A DNA stretch of 64,000 nucleotides from Glycomyces luteolus (lineage in GTDB: Bacteria; Actinomycetota; Actinomycetes; Mycobacteriales; Micromonosporaceae), in contig NZ_JAPZVP010000010.1 in NCBI RefSeq assembly GCF_027622875.1, forward strand, positions 1-64,000. Direction: 5' to 3'. Shown here piece after piece: positions 3,659 to 17,308 of the stretch. The notes below the pieces were generated by a model. It did not search any database, was not told the DNA's origin, and was given only the letters and a program-made list of their open reading frames with translations. The position numbers and the translations under genes were made by a program. Every line of letters begins with the position of its first letter. Positions within the stretch are counted from its first letter, which is position 1.

Positions 3659-3689
3659 CAGAGCTATATTCACATATTTATCTATACTG

Positions 3690-3763
3690 TCGGGACGACA
3701 GGATTTGAACCTGCGACCCCTCGCTCCCAAAGCGAGTGCGCTACCAAGCTGCGCCACGTCCCG
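3690..3763 (-). tRNA. tRNA-Pro (anticodon TGG)
   Basis: Read on the minus strand, the acceptor arms CGGGACG and CGTCCCG pair perfectly with the C1-G72 typical of bacterial tRNA-Pro and discriminator A. The D arm (GGCGCAGCTTGGTAGCGC), the anticodon stem-loop with TTTGGGA (anticodon TGG) and the T arm (GGTTCGAATCC) are all present. CCA is not encoded. tRNA 3' ends are common integration sites. The accessory-looking stretch on its left starts at this 3' end, but no duplicated tRNA end was found in the window. Confidence 0.95.
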
Positions 3764-4149
3764 ATCACCACCGCAAAGCGGCCTCAGCCAGGGTACAGCA
3801 CTACTGCCTCAAAACGCCGCCAGGTATTCCCGACGTTACAGACGTCGCTCGAGGTTTGGACCGCTGACTGACCTGCGCAACCCTGGTCATCTTGGCGCCT
3901 GCTACAGGGAGGTGCCGGTCATAGGTCACAGGGCAATCCCGCGTAGCGGCGACCGCAACCCCAGGCTCTCGTTGTGCCCCACAGTTCCGGCGGCGCTCGC
4001 CACCAGCATGAGTCTGTGGCGTGCCTGCGGCAGCCGCCCCGGCGGCGAACACCGCCAGGGCGGGGGTATGCACGTGGACCACGCTGCCAGGCACCACCGC
4101 AGTGAAGTCATTCGGCTCGTGGGGATATCGGTACGAGCCTCGCGCCGGC
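3764..4149. other. Gene-free stretch upstream of tRNA-Pro
   Basis: Reading frames here lack actinomycete codon bias and resemble no family. It must contain the tRNA-Pro promoter (minus strand), but no convincing -35/-10 pair stands out. Otherwise I see nothing in it. Confidence 0.5.
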
Positions 4150-4401
4150 TTACTTCTTACGATTGACCGCGCGCTGGAGCTCGGCCTTGTTCATCTTGGA
4201 TCGGCCTTTGATGTTCTTGCGCCGGGCTTCCTCGTAGAGCTGCTCCTTCGTGCGGCCCTTCGGCCCCGAGCGCGAGCGCTTCCCGCCGCGCCTTGAAGGC
4301 GACGTGTCCTTGGTGGAGCTGCGACTCGCGGTGCGGGTCTCGCCTTCCTGGGCACGCTGCTTGTTCACGGTGCGAGCGGCGATCTCCACCTCCGCGGCCA
4401 C
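4150..4401 (-). CDS. Small basic Rho-N/SAP-like DNA-binding protein
   Basis: An 83-residue, very basic protein. Its C-terminal half (TKEQLYEEARRKNIKGRSKM, then NKAELQRAV) matches the short helix-extended-loop-helix found in Rho N-terminal/SAP-like modules of small actinobacterial proteins, sometimes labelled plasmid stabilisation proteins. The N-terminal half is a charged, probably disordered tail. The GTG start directly abuts the TGA of csbD, so the two are translationally coupled and probably share the stress-type promoter upstream of csbD. Likely binds nucleic acid; the precise role is unknown. Confidence 0.75.
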   Translation of the reverse strand: MAAEVEIAARTVNKQRAQEGETRTASRSSTKDTSPSRRGGKRSRSGPKGRTKEQLYEEARRKNIKGRSKMNKAELQRAVNRKK

Positions 4402-4632
4402 TCACCGGTCCTCGTCGTCGGAGCCCCTGCCCATGAGGCGTTCCTTGCCTTCATGGAGCTTGTCGTCGGCCTCCTCGCGCAGGTCGTGGGCCTTTTCCTT
4501 CGCCTTGCCCTTGAGCTTCTCGGCGCGGCCCTCGTTCTCCAAGCGCTCGTTGTCGGTCGCGTCGCCGATCTTCTCCTTGACATGGCCCTTCAACTGTTCA
4601 GCCTTGTCCTTAGCCTTATCGACCCCGCCCAT
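4402..4632 (-). CDS. CsbD family stress protein
   Basis: A 76-residue, highly charged helical protein with the CsbD signature (DKAKDKAEQLKGHVKEKIGD), repeated as GRAEKLKGKAKEKAHDLREE. CsbD proteins are abundant SigB-regulated general-stress proteins in Bacillus and are common in soil actinomycetes; their molecular role is unclear. Length is normal. About 40 bases upstream lies GTGT-N15-GGGTAT on the minus strand, a good match to SigB/SigF-type promoters. It is first in a two-gene unit with the Rho-N-like protein. Confidence 0.9.
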   Translation of the reverse strand: MGGVDKAKDKAEQLKGHVKEKIGDATDNERLENEGRAEKLKGKAKEKAHDLREEADDKLHEGKERLMGRGSDDEDR

Positions 4633-4672
4633 GGCCTCGTCCTTTCTCAGATTGCCGATGATGCCTCCTCGA

Positions 4673-4697
4673 ATACCCGGTCAGCCGCTGAACACAC
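4673..4697 (-). promoter_or_regulatory. SigB/SigF-type promoter for csbD
   Basis: On the minus strand: GTGT, a 15-nt spacer, then GGGTAT, matching the GNNT-N14-16-GGGTAY consensus of actinobacterial general-stress sigma factors. The expected start site lies about 30 bases before the csbD ATG. Confidence 0.6.
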
Positions 4698-4839
4698 AGT
4701 GACGTTCCGGCACAGGACGCCGGATAGGGCCTAGAACAGCGCTCACGGCGCACCTTCAGCCCCGAGATCGCGACGTGTCGCCTCGCGTCCGACGGTTTCT
4801 CCCGCTCCCGAATCGGCGGCGTCAGCTTGACGTTGGCGG

Positions 4840-5103
4840 TCAGTGGGCGGGGCGGTGGCGGCTTTGGGCGATGCTCTCGGCGACGCCGATGAGCAGGACC
4901 GCCGCTATCACGGACACGACGAAGCCGAGGACGTTCAGTTCCCAGATGTCGCCGGTGCCGAGCAGGTTCGCGACCGTTCCGCCGATCACCGAGCCAACCA
5001 GGCCGAGGATGAGGGTGGCGAGGAGGCCGAGCCGCTGCTTGCCCGGCTTGATGAGGCGTGCGAGCACGCCGATGACGAGCCCTGCCACGATGAATCCGAT
5101 CAT
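4840..5103 (-). CDS. GlsB/YeaQ/YmgE family membrane protein
   Basis: An 87-residue integral membrane protein with the family pattern of three Gly-rich helices (MIGFIVAGLVIGVLARLI, LGLLATLILGLVGSVIGG, VLGFVVSVIAAVLLIGVAES) and the conserved LIKPGKQ loop. Members are called transglycosylase-associated or GlsB stress proteins; GlsB anchors the stress protein Asp23 in Enterococcus, Staphylococcus and relatives. Start ATG with RBS GGGAGGA. It lies about 50 bases downstream of a 40-residue membrane ORF, and both follow a SigB-like promoter at 5464-5488. Confidence 0.9.
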   Translation of the reverse strand: MIGFIVAGLVIGVLARLIKPGKQRLGLLATLILGLVGSVIGGTVANLLGTGDIWELNVLGFVVSVIAAVLLIGVAESIAQSRHRPAH

Positions 5104-5153
5104 GAAGTCCTCCCGTGTTCGTTTCGGTCCGGTAGCGCTCTAGCGCTGTCGAT

Positions 5154-5276
5154 TCAGCTTTGCGGTCGGGCGGTTGAGGGGTTTCGCCCGGCATGGCGGC
5201 GCATGATCTCGCGCAGCCCGTACCGCAGTACCGCCAGTACTGCCGCAAGCGCAATGTTCCTCACGAGCCAGCGCAT
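5154..5276 (-). CDS. 40-residue small membrane protein
   Basis: The frame starts ATG after a very strong ribosome binding site (GAGGAGGGTGAA) and encodes a short protein with one hydrophobic helix (LVRNIALAAVLAVLRYGL) followed by a basic tail (REIMRRHAGR). The RBS quality and the position directly before the glsB-like gene support a real gene. No family recognised; it could be a small stress-induced membrane peptide. Confidence 0.6.
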   Translation of the reverse strand: MRWLVRNIALAAVLAVLRYGLREIMRRHAGRNPSTARPQS

Positions 5277-5463
5277 TTCACCCTCCTCGTCTCCTACCGG
5301 TCAACCGGCCTCGTTGCTCTTGTCCGGCGGCCAGGGTCCAATGCTGTGCTGAATGCGGGAGCGCTTCGCGGGCCGGTTGTCGTCGGAGTCGTGGATGTTG
5401 GAAGCGCCCACGACCCAGGACGCCGCGCAGTCATCGCGGCCGCGCTCTTTCGGCTCGTGCCAA

Positions 5464-5488
5464 GTACCCGCCCCACCTCGCTGCAAAC
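5464..5488 (-). promoter_or_regulatory. SigB/SigF-type promoter toward the glsB unit
   Basis: On the minus strand: GTTT, 15-nt spacer, GGGTAC, fitting GNNT-N14-16-GGGTAY. The leader to the first well-supported ORF (5276) would be about 180 nt, which is long, so this assignment is less certain than that for csbD. Confidence 0.5.
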
Positions 5489-5600
5489 CGGGGCTAGCGT
5501 CGCGACTGAGCCGAAACGCACCGACGCGACGGGCGAATTGCCAGGTAGTCGACGCGCAATACGAGTCGGAAATCTCGCGAGCCGCCATTTGCCCTTGCCT

Positions 5601-5625
5601 GTTTCGGTGGTCACAGCACGGGTAT
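5601..5625 (+). promoter_or_regulatory. SigB/SigF-type promoter for the gas-vesicle operon
   Basis: GTTT, 15-nt spacer, GGGTAT, an exact match to the actinobacterial stress-sigma consensus, about 85 bases before the first gene of the gas-vesicle operon. Confidence 0.6.
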
Positions 5626-5711
5626 TCCGGGGCCGTTCATCGAGACGCACCCGCATCTTCTGTCTCACCGGTCACCGGTAGGGGGCGATTCGGGTCGAGA
5701 AGGCAGGGATT

Positions 5712-6416
5712 ATGAAACCGGGACTGAAAGTCGCCGGCGCGATCGGAGTGGGCTATGTGCTGGGGCGCAAGCACAAGATGCGCGCGGCGTTCACACTGGG
5801 CGCGATGGCGGCCGCCGGCCAGCTCGGTCACGTCCGCGACGTGCTGAAAGAGCAGGCAGCGGAGAAACTCGCCTCTTCTGAAGGCATGGGGAACCTCGCC
5901 GACCCCGGGAAGCGCCTGTTGGAAGCCGGAAGGACGGCCGCGGTGGCAGCCGTGGCCGATCGGATAGGGACGTTCAGCGACCAGCTCGAGGAGCGAGCCG
6001 AGGCAGTGCGCTACCCGAGAGGGAAGGCGGAGCAGGAGACCGAGGCCGAGCCGACAGAGGGCAAGGAATCCAAGGCGCACAAGGGCGAGGAATCCGAAGG
6101 CAAGGAGGACGAATCTGAGAAACCCAAGGCGAAGAAGGACGAGCGCAAGCAGACCAAGGGCAAGGAATCCAAGGGCAAGGAATCGGCAGAGAAGGACACC
6201 GAGGGCGATAAGGCCAAGAAGTCCAAAAAATCCAAGGACACCGAAGCCCAGGACGACGAGCCCGAGGCCGAGAAGAAAAAGAAGCCCGAACGGGCCAGCG
6301 AGCAGGACCAGTCTGAGGACGAACCGGACAGTGACGAGCAGGATGGCGAAAAGAAGCGCTCATCCTCTCGCGAGAAGGCCACCACTGGCGCACCGGTTCG
6401 GCGGAAGAGGACGTGA
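5712..6416 (+). CDS. gvpY: Gas-vesicle cluster protein, GvpY-like, with charged tail
   Basis: A 234-residue protein. The N-terminus (MKPGLKVAGAIGVGYVLGRK then HKMRAAFTLGAMAAAG) is the small Gly-rich segment found in actinomycete gas-vesicle clusters, where such genes are called gvpY or misannotated as DNA primase. From about residue 105 to the end it is a Lys/Glu/Ser/Asp-rich low-complexity tail, surely disordered. It is the first gene after a SigB-like promoter and overlaps the next gene by a GTGA. Role unknown; the N-terminal helix may contact membrane or the vesicle shell. The symbol follows the Streptomyces naming and is tentative. Confidence 0.7.
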   Translation: MKPGLKVAGAIGVGYVLGRKHKMRAAFTLGAMAAAGQLGHVRDVLKEQAAEKLASSEGMGNLADPGKRLLEAGRTAAVAAVADRIGTFSDQLEERAEAVRYPRGKAEQETEAEPTEGKESKAHKGEESEGKEDESEKPKAKKDERKQTKGKESKGKESAEKDTEGDKAKKSKKSKDTEAQDDEPEAEKKKKPERASEQDQSEDEPDSDEQDGEKKRSSSREKATTGAPVRRKRT

Positions 6417-6421
6417 GAGCG

Positions 6422-7399
6422 ATGGCTGAAGAATCGAAGAGCCCCTCGAATGGGGCCACCGGCATTCTCGGGAATGAAGTCCGCAAGCTGATGGTCGCGG
6501 TCGGTGATCGCGCCCTGGCAGGTGTGGCCCACAAGATGGACTCGGTCACCGATCGGTTGGCGGAGTACGCAAAGCACCCCGGTGACACCGGGCTCATCAG
6601 CGCGCTCACCGGCAAGAGTTCGAAGGACGGCCCCGGCGCGCTCGCTGGTACAGCAGCGCTCGCCGGCAAGGCCGGAGCCGCGATCGCACGCCCGGCGCAC
6701 CGGATCAAGGACGCATTGACCAGCCACGGAGACGGCAACGGCGGCAACGGCGGCGGCGGCGAAAAGACGAAAGTGACCAACATCGTCGAGGAAATCGACA
6801 TCGGCGCCCCGGTACGCGTGTGCTACGACCAGTGGACGAGGTTCACCGACTTCCCGACGTTCATGAAGAAGGTTGAGAACGTCGAACAGGAGTCGGACGA
6901 GAAGCTGAACTGGAAGGCCCAGGTCTTCTGGTCCCACCGCACCTGGCAGTCGACGATCATCGAGCAGGTTCCAGACCGACGCATCGTCTGGCAGTCGACC
7001 GGCGACAAGGGATATGTCGACGGCGCTGTCACGTTCCACGAACTGGCGCCGGAGATGACCCGCGTCATTCTGGTGCTCGAGTACCACCCGCAGGGACTGT
7101 TCGAACACACCGGGAACCTCTGGCGCGCCCAGGGCCGGCGAGCACGGTTGGAGCTCAAGCACTTCGCCCGGCACGTCATGACCCAAGCCGTCTTGCACCC
7201 CGGCGAGGTCGAAGGCTGGCGCGGGGAGATCCACGATGGCCACGTGGAGTCCGAGGAGTCCGAGGAGTCTGAGGAGTCTGAGGAGTCCGCGGAGTCTGAG
7301 GAGTCCGCGGAGTCCAAAGAGTCCGGGGAGTCCGAGGAATCGCCCGAAGATGCGGAATCGACATCGCGCGCGCAGGACCAGGACAAGGCCACCGATTGA
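6422..7399 (+). CDS. gvpZ: SRPBCC family protein of the gas-vesicle cluster, GvpZ-like
   Basis: A 325-residue protein with three parts: an N-terminal helical segment (residues about 10-100), a polyketide cyclase/SRPBCC fold (about 118-265, with VTNIVEEIDIGAPVRVCYDQ, FTDFPTFMKKVENVEQ, GAVTFHELAPEMTRVIL), and an acidic Glu/Ser repeat tail. SRPBCC proteins bind hydrophobic ligands; in Streptomyces gas-vesicle clusters this type is gvpZ. I prefer the ATG at 6422; a GTG at 6413 overlapping the previous stop is an alternative. The tail is encoded by a 9-nt tandem repeat (7246-7340). Confidence 0.75.
   Translation: MAEESKSPSNGATGILGNEVRKLMVAVGDRALAGVAHKMDSVTDRLAEYAKHPGDTGLISALTGKSSKDGPGALAGTAALAGKAGAAIARPAHRIKDALTSHGDGNGGNGGGGEKTKVTNIVEEIDIGAPVRVCYDQWTRFTDFPTFMKKVENVEQESDEKLNWKAQVFWSHRTWQSTIIEQVPDRRIVWQSTGDKGYVDGAVTFHELAPEMTRVILVLEYHPQGLFEHTGNLWRAQGRRARLELKHFARHVMTQAVLHPGEVEGWRGEIHDGHVESEESEESEESEESAESEESAESKESGESEESPEDAESTSRAQDQDKATD
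7246..7340 (+). repeat. 9-nt tandem coding repeat (Glu-Ser-rich tail)
   Basis: Approximate repeats of GAGGAGTCY encode the EESEESEES-type end of the SRPBCC protein. Such repeats are prone to in-frame copy-number change. Confidence 0.8.
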
Positions 7400-7444
7400 T
7401 CGAAGCACCGGCCCGGGACACCGGGCCGGTAAGGGAGCGAACCT

Positions 7445-7852
7445 ATGACTACCGATATAGAACCGGTCGGCGGAGGAGGCGGGGTGCAGCGCTCGCAGGC
7501 GGGCTCCAGCCTGGCCGACGTCGTCGACACGATCCTCGACAAAGGCCTCGTGATCGACGCGTATGTGTCGGCTTCGCTGGTCGGCATCGAACTGCTCACC
7601 GTCAACGCCCGCATCGTCGTAGCAAGCGTGGACACCTATCTCGATTTCGCCGAAGCGGCCAACCGATTGGACCTGTCCTCCAGCCAGGGCAAGGGACTGC
7701 CGGAGATCGTCGAGAACGTGCAGGAAGACGGATCGCAGAAGAAGTTGAAGGGCGCCACCAAAGGCGCACTGGAGGCCGCGGGCGAGAAGATCCGCAACGT
7801 CGCGGGCCTCGATGAGGAGAAGGAGCGGGAACCGTCCCGCAGCAAAGACTGA
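7445..7852 (+). CDS. gvpA: Gas vesicle structural protein GvpA (GvpA/GvpJ family)
   Basis: A 135-residue protein whose residues about 20-80 form the GvpA core: [20 protein letters not shown] (amphipathic helix 1), the beta-hairpin [20 protein letters not shown], and helix 2 [13 protein letters not shown]. GvpA polymerises into the ribs of the gas-vesicle wall. Of the three GvpA/J-family genes here it is closest to GvpA, although actinomycete GvpA has a C-terminal extension (here residues 80-135, charged) that cyanobacterial GvpA lacks. Start ATG with RBS GGGAG. It heads the canonical part of the operon. Confidence 0.9.
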
Positions 7853-7878
7853 TCAGTTGCACTTGAAGGAGGACGTCG

Positions 7879-8664
7879 ATGACACCGCCGGAAAACGGGA
7901 AGGCGGAGCGGCGAGTAGGGGTCTACGTCTACGGGATCGTCCCCGGGGATGTGGAACTCGTGCCCGACTCCAAAGGCGTCGGGGACCCGCCCGGCGAGAT
8001 CCAGTTGGTCCATCAAGGCGATGTCGCGGCCCTGGTGAGCGAGGTCGAATTGGACAAGAAGCTCGGGCGCGCAGCGGACCTCAAGCTGCACGAGCGCCTG
8101 CTCGACTCGACCGTCGCCGCGGAGATCCCGGTGCTGCCGCTGCGCTTCGGCGCGGTGCTGAGCAGCCGGGAGGCGGTCAGCGACGAGCTGCTGGGCACCA
8201 ACAGCGACTTGTTCGCATCCGCCCTTGAGGAGCTGGAGGGGCGCGCCGAGTACATCGTCCAAGGCCGGTACGAAGAGGAAGCAGTGTTGAGGGAGGTGCT
8301 GTCAGAGAACAGCGCCGCGGCGAGCCTCAAAGACCAGCTCAAGGACCTGCCTGAAGACGAGGCCGAGAATCTGCGGATCGAGCTGGGCGAGACTATCCAC
8401 CAGGCGGTCGAGGCCAAGAGGGAGGCGGACAGCGGGCGAGTGATCGAAGCACTCGCGGACCACGTCGTCGCCACCGCCGCCCGGGAGCCGAGCCATGAGT
8501 TGGATGCGGTCAACGTCGCGGTCCTCGCCAAGCTCTCCGATGAGAAGGAGATCGAGGAATCCGTCGAAGCGCTGGCCTCCGATTGGGAAGGCCGGGTCAA
8601 CCTGCGGCTGCGCGGGCCGCTCGCGCCGTACGACTTCGTGGTGCAGCTCAAGCCCGGAGACTGA
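7879..8664 (+). CDS. gvpF: Gas vesicle protein GvpF/GvpL family (first copy)
   Basis: A 261-residue GvpL/GvpF-family protein: start VGVYVYGIVPGDVEL, helix with DLKLHERLLDSTVAA, strand IPVLPLRFGAVLSS and the C-terminal ferredoxin-like part ending VNLRLRGPLAPYDFVVQL. These accessory proteins bind GvpA and are needed to begin shell assembly. Strong RBS (AAGGAGG) before the ATG. It comes directly after gvpA and just before gvpG, the usual F-G order, so I assign gvpF to this copy and gvpL to the later one. Confidence 0.92.
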   Translation: MTPPENGKAERRVGVYVYGIVPGDVELVPDSKGVGDPPGEIQLVHQGDVAALVSEVELDKKLGRAADLKLHERLLDSTVAAEIPVLPLRFGAVLSSREAVSDELLGTNSDLFASALEELEGRAEYIVQGRYEEEAVLREVLSENSAAASLKDQLKDLPEDEAENLRIELGETIHQAVEAKREADSGRVIEALADHVVATAAREPSHELDAVNVAVLAKLSDEKEIEESVEALASDWEGRVNLRLRGPLAPYDFVVQLKPGD

Positions 8665-8665
8665 G

Positions 8666-8953
8666 ATGAACCTGTTCTCGATCCTCCTGGAGCTCCCGCT
8701 GGCGCCGCTGCGCGGCGTGGTCGCCGTCTCGAGGATCATCCAGACCCAAGCCGAGCGCGAGCTGTACGACCCGGCGGCGCTGCGCCGCCGGATCGAGGAG
8801 ACGGACGCTGCGGTTGAGGCCGGGGAGCTCACCGAGGAGGAAGCCGAGCAGGAGCAGCAGGAAACCCTTGAAGCCGCCGTCGTGCCCACTGCCCCTGATG
8901 CAGCGGAGGCAGCCGAACCGGACGAGGACGACGGCGACGAGAGTGAGGAGTGA
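8666..8953 (+). CDS. gvpG: Gas vesicle protein GvpG
   Basis: A 95-residue protein with the GvpG pattern: hydrophobic N-terminus (MNLFSILLELPLAPLRGVV), helix with ERELYDPAALRRRIEE, and a coiled-coil AGELTEEEAEQEQQETLEA, then a Pro/Ala/Glu acidic tail. GvpG is an accessory assembly factor that interacts with GvpF/L. The ATG lies one base after the gvpF stop, so translation is coupled. Confidence 0.88.
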   Translation: MNLFSILLELPLAPLRGVVAVSRIIQTQAERELYDPAALRRRIEETDAAVEAGELTEEEAEQEQQETLEAAVVPTAPDAAEAAEPDEDDGDESEE

Positions 8954-8956
8954 CCA

Positions 8957-9262
8957 GTGGGAGAAGAGGCAGAGAAGTCCGAAGAGGAAACCTCTGAGGG
9001 CATGACCGCCGCGCGTGCCGCTCAGGTCGGCCTGCGGCAGATCTCCGAGCTGATCGACAAGGAGACCCTCGGAGTGACATCGGTGGAATCCGCGGAGGAC
9101 GGCTGGCGGGTCGGCGTCGAGGTGCTGGAGGACCGTCGCGTGCCCTCGTCCACCGACATGCTCGCCTTGTACGAGCTGCAATTGTCCGAGGACGGGACCC
9201 TGCAGGGGTACAGCCGCAAGCGGCGGTACTCCCGCGGGAGCAGCGAGAACAGGGGGCAGTGA
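8957..9262 (+). CDS. gvpO: Gas vesicle protein GvpO
   Basis: A 101-residue protein matching GvpO: AARAAQVGLRQISELIDKET, the strand pair VTSVESAEDGWRVGVEVLED, and the end YELQLSEDGTLQGYSRKRRY. GvpO is required for vesicle formation in haloarchaea and is conserved in actinomycete clusters. GTG start three bases after the gvpG stop. In the S. coelicolor-type order gvpO precedes gvpA; here it lies between gvpG and gvpJ, so the operon is rearranged. Confidence 0.9.
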   Translation: MGEEAEKSEEETSEGMTAARAAQVGLRQISELIDKETLGVTSVESAEDGWRVGVEVLEDRRVPSSTDMLALYELQLSEDGTLQGYSRKRRYSRGSSENRGQ

Positions 9263-9657
9263 TGACCGACGGACGCCAATCAGCGGTATCTCCCCAGTCC
9301 GGTGCGATGGCGCCCTCGGGCGGCCGCGACTCGACGAACCTCGGCGACATCTTGGAACGGGTTCTGGATCGCGGGCTGGTGATCGTGGGCGACATCCGCA
9401 TCAGCCTGCTCGACATCGAGCTGCTCACCATCAAACTGCGCCTTCTGGTGGCGTCCGTGGACACCGCCCGACAGTTGGGGATCGACTGGTGGGAGCACGA
9501 CCCGTGGCTCACCTCCGCGGCTCGCACGGAGTTGCCGGACAGTCAGCGCAGCGGCGAAATCGACCAGTCAGCAGAAGAGAACGAGCTTGAGGCCGGCGAT
9601 GAGGACGAAACGGCCTCCGAAGACGACGAAGCGGATGAGGAAGAAGAGGAGTCGTGA
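9262..9657 (+). CDS. gvpJ: Gas vesicle protein GvpJ (GvpA/J family)
   Basis: A 131-residue protein with a GvpA-like core at about residues 26-80 (LGDILERVLDRGLVIVGDIR, ISLLDIELLTIKLRLLVASV, DTARQLGIDWW). The ending IDWW is typical of GvpJ, a minor shell-tip component, not of the main rib protein. The C-terminal 45 residues are very acidic. The ATG overlaps the gvpO TGA; a GTG one codon earlier is possible. Confidence 0.88.
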   Translation: MTDGRQSAVSPQSGAMAPSGGRDSTNLGDILERVLDRGLVIVGDIRISLLDIELLTIKLRLLVASVDTARQLGIDWWEHDPWLTSAARTELPDSQRSGEIDQSAEENELEAGDEDETASEDDEADEEEEES

Positions 9658-10466
9658 TGCCCGGCAGCGGCGTGTGGCTCTACGCGGTGTCCTCCCGCCT
9701 GGTCTCCGAAGCAGGCCTGGCGGGGACGACCGGTGTCGACGCGGAGCGATTGCGAACCGTGGAACGGGACGGGCTGGTCGCGGTCGTCGGCTCGGTCGAC
9801 CTGGACGAGTTCGGCGAAGCGCCCTTGCGCCGCAAACTCGACCACCTCGAAACGCTGGAGGCGATCGCACGGGCGCACCACGCGGTCGTCGACGCCGCCG
9901 CCCGCCTCGCACCCGTGGTCCCGATCCGTCTCGCCACTGTGTACCGCGGCGACGACGGGATCGCCGATCTGCTCGCGCAGCGGCATGACGAACTCACCAC
10001 CGCGCTCGAACGCATCTCGGGACGCTTCGAGTGGGGTGTAAAGGCCTATGCGGCGCCCGCGTCGCCTGCCGAACCGGACGCGGAGGCGACCTCCGACGCC
10101 GGTCCTGGGACCGCGTACCTGCTGCGCCGCCGAACGCAACTGGAGACGCTGGACCGCGCCCGGCAGACGGCAGTGGACAGCGCCGAACACGTACACGCCA
10201 GGCTGAGCGAGATCGCGGTGGCGTCGCGTCGGCACGCCCCGCAGGACGCGCAGCTGACGGGCACGCCAGAGTGGATGGTGCTCAACGGCGCGTACCTGGT
10301 CGACGTGACGCGGGCCGATGAATTCGCGCACGCGGTCGACTCGCTGAAGGCCGCGCAGCCCACCGTCAGGCTTGAGCTGACCGGACCATGGCCGCCCTAC
10401 TCCTTCACCGCGGGCGAGCCGGCGGAAGCCGACGACGCCGCTCAGGAAGCAGAGGCCCGGACATGA
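9657..10466 (+). CDS. gvpL: Gas vesicle protein GvpL/GvpF family (second copy)
   Basis: A 269-residue second GvpL/F paralogue: VWLYAVSSRLVSEAGLA start, VDLDEFGEAPLRRKLDHLE, ARLAPVVPIRLATVYRGDDG, ERISGRFEWGVKAYAAP and the final VRLELTGPWPPYSFTAGE. GvpL forms a multi-subunit assembly complex with the other accessory Gvps. The ATG overlaps the gvpJ stop by one base. It is quite diverged from the first copy, consistent with distinct F and L roles. Confidence 0.9.
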   Translation: MPGSGVWLYAVSSRLVSEAGLAGTTGVDAERLRTVERDGLVAVVGSVDLDEFGEAPLRRKLDHLETLEAIARAHHAVVDAAARLAPVVPIRLATVYRGDDGIADLLAQRHDELTTALERISGRFEWGVKAYAAPASPAEPDAEATSDAGPGTAYLLRRRTQLETLDRARQTAVDSAEHVHARLSEIAVASRRHAPQDAQLTGTPEWMVLNGAYLVDVTRADEFAHAVDSLKAAQPTVRLELTGPWPPYSFTAGEPAEADDAAQEAEART

Positions 10467-10705
10467 CCGACGCGACTCCGGCACGCCGAACGGATCAGGC
10501 GATGGCGCCCCAGCGGATCGCGCTGGTCGACCTGCTCGACCGGGTACTCGCGACCGGGGTGGTCGTGACCGGCGACGTGACCATATCGATCGCCGACGTC
10601 GACCTGGTGTACATCTCGCTCCAGGCGCTCATCTCGTCCGTGCGGGCAGGCGGCCCCGGACCGCCGCCCCCGGCCGGCATGGACCAGCAAGCGGGGCGGT
10701 CATGA
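10463..10705 (+). CDS. gvpS: Gas vesicle protein GvpS (GvpA/J family, short)
   Basis: An 80-residue, minimal GvpA-family protein: PQRIALVDLLDRVLATGVVV, TGDVTISIADVDLVYISLQA, LISSV. It keeps the helix-beta-hairpin-helix order but lacks an extended C-terminus. In actinomycete clusters a third GvpA/J-type gene between gvpL and gvpK is called gvpS. The ATG overlaps the gvpL TGA (ATGA), as does the junction to gvpK. Confidence 0.85.
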   Translation: MTDATPARRTDQAMAPQRIALVDLLDRVLATGVVVTGDVTISIADVDLVYISLQALISSVRAGGPGPPPPAGMDQQAGRS

Positions 10706-11025
10706 GCGATCCCCAAGCGCCGCAACCGGAACAGCCGAGCTCCGGCTCCCTCCAGCCCCGGATCGAGGTCGACCGGGAATCCGTGGAACGGGGCGTCGCC
10801 GGGCTGGTCCTGACCATCGTCGAACTCGTGCGCCAACTCATGGAGCGGCAGGCGATCCGGCGGATCGACCAAGGCGACCTCACCGACGACCAGATCGAGC
10901 AGATCGGCGCCACGCTGATGGCGCTCGAGGAGAAGATGACGGAGCTTCGGGAGCACTTCGGATTGTCGCCCGAGGATCTCAACATCGACCTCGGCCCGCT
11001 AGGGCCGCTGCTGCCCCGGGAATGA
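10702..11025 (+). CDS. gvpK: Gas vesicle protein GvpK
   Basis: A 107-residue protein with the full GvpK signature: VERGVAGLVLTIVELVRQLM, ERQAIRRIDQGDLTDDQIEQ, IGATLMALEEKMTELREHFG and LNIDLGPLGPLL. GvpK is an essential accessory protein of gas-vesicle assembly. It is the last gene of the operon, coupled to gvpS by ATGA. No strong terminator follows. Confidence 0.95.
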   Translation: MSDPQAPQPEQPSSGSLQPRIEVDRESVERGVAGLVLTIVELVRQLMERQAIRRIDQGDLTDDQIEQIGATLMALEEKMTELREHFGLSPEDLNIDLGPLGPLLPRE

Positions 11026-11206
11026 CCAGCACGGACCGGGGCGCGCATCCGACCTCGTCGAGTGCTCGGTATCGGGCAGGGCCATTTCCCCCACGAGCGG
11101 CCTGCCTCACCACGACGATCGAACACCCCGGCCGGGAAACCGGAGGTCCGGCCGATGGGGCGGGCCCTGGCCTTGGCGTGGTCGAAGCGGCTGGCAGGTC
11201 CGGCGG

Positions 11207-11244: not shown

Positions 11245-11934
11245 ATGGCTGGCGTGCGTGGAGGTTCGGGGCCAGGGCAGCAGGTCGGGTTGAGTCGGCC
11301 GCGGGTGCTGCGCGGTGCGGTGGCGATCGCGGACGAGCGCGGGCTGGCGGCGCTGACGATGCGGAGCCTGGCGGAGTCGCTGGGGGTCGAGGCGATGTCG
11401 CTGTACCACCATGTGGCGAACAAGGAAGCGGTGCTCGACGGGCTGGTCGAGGTCGTCATGGCCGAGATCGAGGAGGCCGTGGCGGGCCTCGACGCGCCCG
11501 CGCCCGAGGACGACTGGCAGCGGGCGATGCGGATGCGCGTGCTCGCCGCCCGCGAGGTGCTGGTCCGGCATCCCTGGGCCCCGAGTGTGTTCGAGACGCG
11601 GACCGGGACGAGCCTGGCGGTGGCCCGGTACTTCGACGGGGTGCTCGGGCTGATGCGGCGCGGCGGCTTCAGCTATGAGTTGGGGCATCGCGCCTTGCAC
11701 GCCTTGGGAAGTCGGGCACTCGGGTTCTCGCAGGAGCTGTTCGAGCCCGACGGGATCGAGGCTCCCGAGGAGGCGCTGGCGGCGATGGCCGAGGAGGTGC
11801 CGCATCTGGTGGCGATGATCGCGGACGCGTCGCACGGCGGCGCGGTGCTCGGCTGGTGCGACTACCAGGCCGAGTTCGAGTTCGGTCTGGATCTGATCCT
11901 GGACGGTCTGGAGCGGCTGCGCGCCGCCGGTTAG
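11245..11934 (+). CDS. TetR/AcrR family regulator (TetR_C type)
   Basis: A 229-residue TetR-family repressor. The N-terminal HTH is LSRPRVLRGAVAIADERGLA, LTMRSLAESLGVEAMSLYHH, VANKEAVLDGLV, and the C-terminus is of the tetracycline-repressor type (RHPWAPSVFETRTGTSLA, FEFGLDLILDGLERL). I start it at the ATG at 11245, six residues beyond a GGGGTGGCG site; longer frames upstream lack coding character. The downstream dehydrogenase promoter carries two perfect CTTAC-N3-GTAAG palindromes, probably its operators. Confidence 0.9.
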   Translation: MAGVRGGSGPGQQVGLSRPRVLRGAVAIADERGLAALTMRSLAESLGVEAMSLYHHVANKEAVLDGLVEVVMAEIEEAVAGLDAPAPEDDWQRAMRMRVLAAREVLVRHPWAPSVFETRTGTSLAVARYFDGVLGLMRRGGFSYELGHRALHALGSRALGFSQELFEPDGIEAPEEALAAMAEEVPHLVAMIADASHGGAVLGWCDYQAEFEFGLDLILDGLERLRAAG

Positions 11935-17271: not shown

Positions 17272-17308
17272 GCGCGGAAGGTACCCGCGGCGGGACGCGC
17301 GGAAACCG

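Follow-up and report, generated by a model that had tools for sequence, protein, structure and literature searches.

In a 64,000-nucleotide stretch of the Glycomyces luteolus genome (the whole of the DNA analysed, hereafter the window), three closely spaced sequence boxes appear to be promoters of a single group-3 (SigB/SigF-type) sigma factor that would switch on a csbD unit, a glsB unit and a gas-vesicle (gvp) operon together. We put the probability of this reading at about 85%. RNA polymerase carrying such an alternative sigma factor would read all three boxes, transcribing csbD leftward, a 40-codon open reading frame (ORF) and glsB leftward, and, diverging from glsB, a gvp operon of ten genes rightward. 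Release of the sigma factor, most likely through partner switching, might be triggered by heat, osmotic or envelope stress, or by a stage of development, and CsbD, a GlsB-like membrane protein and gas-vesicle proteins would then be made. We infer the promoter activity, the identity of the sigma factor, the signal, vesicle formation and osmotic induction of gvp in G. luteolus.

The pattern GNNT-N15-GGGTAY matches exactly three times in the window, at 4673-4697 (minus strand), 5464-5488 (minus) and 5601-5625 (plus). Our pattern scan thus recovered the three sites, each with a 15-nt spacer, that an earlier sequence-only reading of this DNA had proposed as stress-sigma-type promoters. All have the group-3 promoter form (-35 GNNT, -10 GGGTA(C/T/G), spacer of 14-16 nt), and their placement relative to start codons fits promoters. 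The leftmost box (GTGT-N15-GGGTAT), identified by pattern match and congeneric conservation, has its -10 element 40 nt from the ATG (4632) of csbD (4402-4632, minus; Pfam CsbD at 65.5 bits, cut-off 40). A small basic ORF 3' of csbD (4150-4401, minus), with a weak Rho_N-like match below the cut-off (PF07498, E 0.04), may share its transcript. The middle box (GTTT-N15-GGGTAC) faces the gene for a GlsB-like (Transgly_assoc) small membrane protein (4840-5103, minus), which scores 25.2 bits, just below the Pfam cut-off of 25.3. The third box (GTTT-N15-GGGTAT) precedes the gvp operon, with 86 nt between its -10 element and the first ATG (5712).

The gvp operon begins with ORF1 (5712-6416, plus), which has no Pfam match over the cut-off and whose orthologues come first in most clusters of the family. 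It is followed by a gene for an SRPBCC (Polyketide_cyc) protein (6419-7399, plus), assigned by Pfam and by gene order in relatives, and by gvpA, gvpF, gvpG, gvpO, a gvpA-like gene, gvpL, a gvpS-like gene and gvpK (7445-11025, plus). Pfam cut-offs are exceeded by GvpA, GvpF/L and GvpO, which is the basis for naming gvpA, gvpF, gvpO and the gvpA-like gene; gvpF and gvpL are also matched by PF06386. The genes that we take to be gvpG, gvpS and gvpK are labelled from gene order and general knowledge, GvpK also by similarity among loci. Window proteins were compared by tblastn with 83 gvp loci (3 named and 80 fetched regions), and the order ORF1-SRPBCC-gvpA-F-G-O-A-L-S-K occurs in most of them, other orders being a minority. 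The window operon carries GvpA, GvpF/L, GvpO and GvpK in the order of these relatives, so the 5601-5625 box lies ahead of the leading gene of an operon whose gene order is conserved.

Relatives retain boxes at the orthologous places ahead of all three units. Conservation in orthologous intergenic regions was one of the checks proposed in the sequence-only reading, and with the window genome's own genes left out for csbD and glsB, it gave 18/20 for csbD, 13/14 for glsB and 42/51 for gvp; these results, together with a sigma factor of the right type in the genome, support the stress-sigma interpretation. CsbD is under SigB control in Bacillus. Across 22 congeneric genomes (the window genome included) there are 26 CsbD-like loci, 22 of them above the Pfam cut-off, and 20 of these 22 have GNNT-N14-16-GGGTAY in the 200 nt ahead of the CsbD domain. 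The two that do not read GGGTAA instead, and the pattern is absent from the 200 nt upstream of the four below-cut-off genes. The remainder of the csbD loci holds 2 N15 sites in 155,278 nt, counting both strands.

GlsB-like matches number 15, in 12 of the 22 genomes, and pass the curated cut-off in 5 genomes. Within 900 nt upstream, GNNT-N14-16-GGGTA[CTG] occurs at nine of the 15; within 200 nt, a looser box with GGG[TA]AN occurs at eight (background 0.066 per 200 nt). Counting both box types, near or distal, 14 of the 15 genes have one upstream. The sole gene with neither type upstream, at locus L157, sits after a CRISPR-like run of repeats (repeated CTCTCCACGGACGTGGAGGTGTTCC, by eye).

ORF1 was recognised in 51 gvp loci, those in which it is not first being scored as misses. 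GNNT-N14-16-GGGTAY lies within 300 nt ahead of ORF1 in 38 of the 51; allowing G as the last base (GGGTA[CTG]) raises the count to 44, of which 42 have GTTT at -35. The rest of these loci contains 4 GTTT sites in 1,118,370 nt, or ~0.001 per 300 nt. When SRPBCC or other gvp genes also serve as anchors and 900 nt are searched, GTTT boxes are found in 59/83 loci. The spacer is 15 nt in 58 of these 59 boxes, and 57 of the 58 spacers differ in sequence; the boxes themselves are invariant by selection, so the evidence lies in placement, spacer length and spacer diversity only. Outside the family, a box precedes ORF1 or the SRPBCC gene in 11/28 loci from a class-level search (best of 179 matching genomes). 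Where the gene order differs, the strict box falls within 300 nt ahead of the first recognised gvp gene in only 1/35 loci (L272).

One genus (g70, loci L254-L273) has a co-directional gvpO in 19/20 loci. There, a variant box, GTTTG-N13-15-GGNNAC, a pattern drawn up after the g70 sequences had been viewed, occurs within 900 nt ahead of gvpO in 13 of the 19 (background 0.003). Two loci of the genus have csbD beside the gvp cluster (L262 at ~9148-9228 and L265 at ~993, in gvp-oriented coordinates), and in L262 a GCTT-N15-GGGTAT box lies right ahead of csbD.

Two genes in the genome (C1:140406-141200 and C20:11049-11819) score above the TIGR02980 (SigBFG) cut-off, and a sigma factor of the required type is therefore present. 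Upstream of the C1 gene, 212 nt from its start, stands GTTT-N16-GGGTAC. Among the 22 best genus matches to this gene, its own included, 8 (7/21 congeneric) carry a GTTT box at 211-220 nt; the other 14 lack it, one showing a GCAT-type box at 163 nt instead and the remaining 13 no box in the 400 nt upstream. The neighbourhood of the C1 gene (G000:C1:140000-145100) is of a stress type: besides the SigB-type sigma gene it holds hemerythrin, CBS-domain and DUF4383 genes, and boxes stand in front of the sigma gene, the hemerythrin gene and the DUF4383 gene. The C20 gene is followed by one for a MEDS-HATPase protein, with a STAS gene divergent, an arrangement that could supply what partner switching needs.

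Could the boxes be chance matches? Dinucleotide shuffles of the window contain a mean of 1.14 matches and reach at least three in 10 of 100 cases, so the count in the window is not significant by itself. Over the genome (5,736,694 bases in 49 contigs) there are 72 GNNT-N15-GGGTAY sites against 115 for a reversed control pattern; the pattern is therefore not enriched genome-wide, and most sites may be fortuitous. These counts alone are insufficient to dismiss a chance origin. The clustering of the boxes is nevertheless unusual and beyond chance, since, with 72 sites scattered at random, three fell within 953 bp only 88 times in 20,000. The more specific GTTT-N14-16-GGGTAY matches three times in the window (5464-5488, 5601-5625 and 17281-17306) against 0.03 expected, and GTGT-N14-16-GGGTAY has the csbD box as its single match there, with 0.16 expected. 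What decides the matter is conservation of position and sequence in relatives, which at all three units greatly exceeds the local background; on this ground we reject a chance origin as very improbable. It is also improbable, though clearly less so, that the 5464-5488 box is not a promoter of glsB and that function is confined to the boxes of csbD and gvp. That box is 360 nt from the glsB ATG (5103), the gap holds ORFs of no Pfam family, including the 40-codon ORF (5157-5276, minus; MRWLVRN...), and eight of the 15 glsB genes have a near box instead. Against this, distal boxes precede glsB in L155, L158, L160, L161 and L162 as well, so the placement in the window is not odd, and we found no terminator-like site on the minus strand between the box and glsB. 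By eye, the box in L155, L161 and L162 comes ahead of a DUF4383-like gene, followed by glsB, and in L160 a 37-codon MRWLVRN ORF resembling that of the window is directly ahead of glsB.

The weightier alternative, unlikely but to be taken seriously, is that two group-3 sigma factors are involved: a GTTT-preferring, developmental SigF/SigH-like factor at gvp and a GNNT-reading stress factor at csbD, with the sigma gene and the glsB unit of the window perhaps on the GTTT side. The neighbouring units would then be only partly co-regulated. The -35 elements give this proposal its force, as GTTT is found in 0/20 csbD boxes (GTGT in 11) and 42/44 gvp boxes (Fisher p 1e-14, a value that ignores relatedness). 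The genome has two SigBFG-type genes to fill such roles, and GTTT is more strictly maintained in the SigF/H/N promoters of Streptomyces coelicolor than in those of SigB/L/M, according to the available part of one study (PMC8346170). The same part, however, describes wide cross-recognition between SigB homologues, and S. coelicolor gvp1 is reported, in sources available in part, to be SigB-dependent even though the gvpO-first clusters compared here are also GTTT-boxed. Since the csbD and gvp boxes are unlike at -35, their sigma factors may differ, and a developmental factor at gvp is possible; from the sequences compared, a single factor common to the three units appears likely rather than certain.

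The reading that one group-3 sigma factor serves all three units is favoured by the clustering and conservation of the boxes, the presence of the right sigma type, the lack of any sigma-70-type site and the precedent of S. coelicolor gvp1 (as given in the parts of that literature available). It is weakened by the lack of genome-wide enrichment and by the many sites inside predicted genes, as well as by the sigma genes that have no GTTT box and the near absence of the strict box from loci of other gene order. A housekeeping promoter was considered and rejected, as no sigma-70-type site was found in 3800-11100. A regulon defined from the motif alone is poor, many of the 72 sites falling inside predicted genes (as crudely called). 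We looked at the 69 sites beyond the three in the window, and those that convince as intergenic boxes belong to a second csbD and, close to the C1 sigma gene, to the hemerythrin and DUF4383 genes. A further box in the window, GTTT-N16-GGGTAC at 17281-17306 (minus), is 9 nt ahead of the ATG of an ORF (17271-16363), the transcript of which is possibly leaderless; we presume that this ORF resembles a LigD-type polymerase.

The csbD, glsB and gvp units together form a block of about 7 kb (window ~3830-11060) between tRNA-Pro and a TetR gene. ORF1 was found in 0/21 congeners, and GvpF/L had no match in the 20 congeners recorded as searched. In one congener (G010, locus L341), only ~350 nt separate the tRNA-Pro region (window 3689-3829) from DNA that corresponds to the TetR/ADH region of the window, starting at 11287. 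None of the other 20 congeneric tRNA-Pro loci, out of 21, has this TetR gene beside it. From these comparisons, the block was likely gained by the window genome.

In relatives, the ~125 nt between the box and ORF1 are conserved in 34 leaders of the family; they contain a covarying long-range helix, and sequence around the ribosome-binding site is conserved too (for example, L089:6763-6889, minus, and L079:4812-4934, plus). Cognate helix arms pair better than swapped arms, and 0/5000 permutations equal them. A structure taken from L088 was tested on 29 of the 34 leaders, aligned: it is 80.2% paired overall, compared with 33-47% when slid by 1-3 columns, the main helix being 92.7% paired and a second helix only 59.1%. 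Shuffles attained the paired percentage in 3/500 cases, the covariation score in 5/500, the number of cells changed on both sides in 0/500, the pairs changed on both sides in 48/500 and the pair types in 346/500; the permutation and shuffle controls correct only partly for relatedness. RNAalifold gave a weak result on the alignment, and the arm swaps and pair counts were used instead. Rfam returned no gathering hit for seven family loci and a piece of the window. By eye, the relatives' structure was not seen in the window, whose leader is no more stably folded than shuffled versions of it (z -0.96).

Stress-sigma control of gvp is known in kind, being in print for S. coelicolor gvp1 in the portions of the literature available. 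New here are the accessory csbD-glsB-gvp block, the conserved structured leader RNA in gvp operons of relatives and the box's spread through a second family. These findings bear on what gas vesicles do in actinobacteria: that gvp operons throughout a large family share one stress-sigma-type box speaks for a role in stress or development, not in buoyancy alone. More tentatively, and at rather less than even odds, the block may be a self-contained accessory stress cassette of ~7 kb (csbD, glsB and gvp with their own group-3-sigma promoters), able to enter the stress regulon of a new host immediately, and ORF1-first actinobacterial gvp operons may generally be group-3-sigma genes, with translation in some relatives additionally controlled by the structured leader RNA.

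How does this compare with known systems? No paper joining CsbD, gas vesicles and SigB was found, and CsbD and gas vesicles appeared together only in one on Rhodobacter RegA, as far as the accessible text of these papers goes. The csbD gene of Corynebacterium glutamicum is similar in having been tried as a candidate hyperosmotic-stress-inducible promoter, and differs in that it was picked as an MtrA-dependent gene, with no SigB-type promoter claimed in the available part of that work (PMC8334368). Promoters of the S. coelicolor SigB homologues resemble the window boxes in their GNNT or GTTT -35, GGGTA-type -10 and similar spacing; they were found with a two-plasmid system and ours from sequence only, and gvp is not mentioned in the part of that paper at hand (PMC8346170). 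In papers likewise available in part, S. coelicolor gvp1 (SCO6499-6508, or SCO6496-6508 in one paper) is described as salt-activated and SigB-dependent (PMC6629963, citing Lee 2005), with a promoter regulated by SigB (PMC5733086). Genes for gvp are also reported to be induced by heat (PMC2687793), by wall antibiotics (PMC3123327) and in an argR mutant (PMC5839063), and under acid shock 11 gvp genes go up and 2 down (PMC2631018). The gvp1 operon differs in gene order, gvpO being first by SCO numbering, and no csbD-glsB-gvp block is described with it in the available text (PMC6629963, PMC5733086); the gvpO-first loci of g70 differ from the window in their variant box. What the window, seen from its letters only, would share with S. 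coelicolor gvp1 is a gas-vesicle operon under SigB-type control, a wiring that would then not be peculiar to S. coelicolor.
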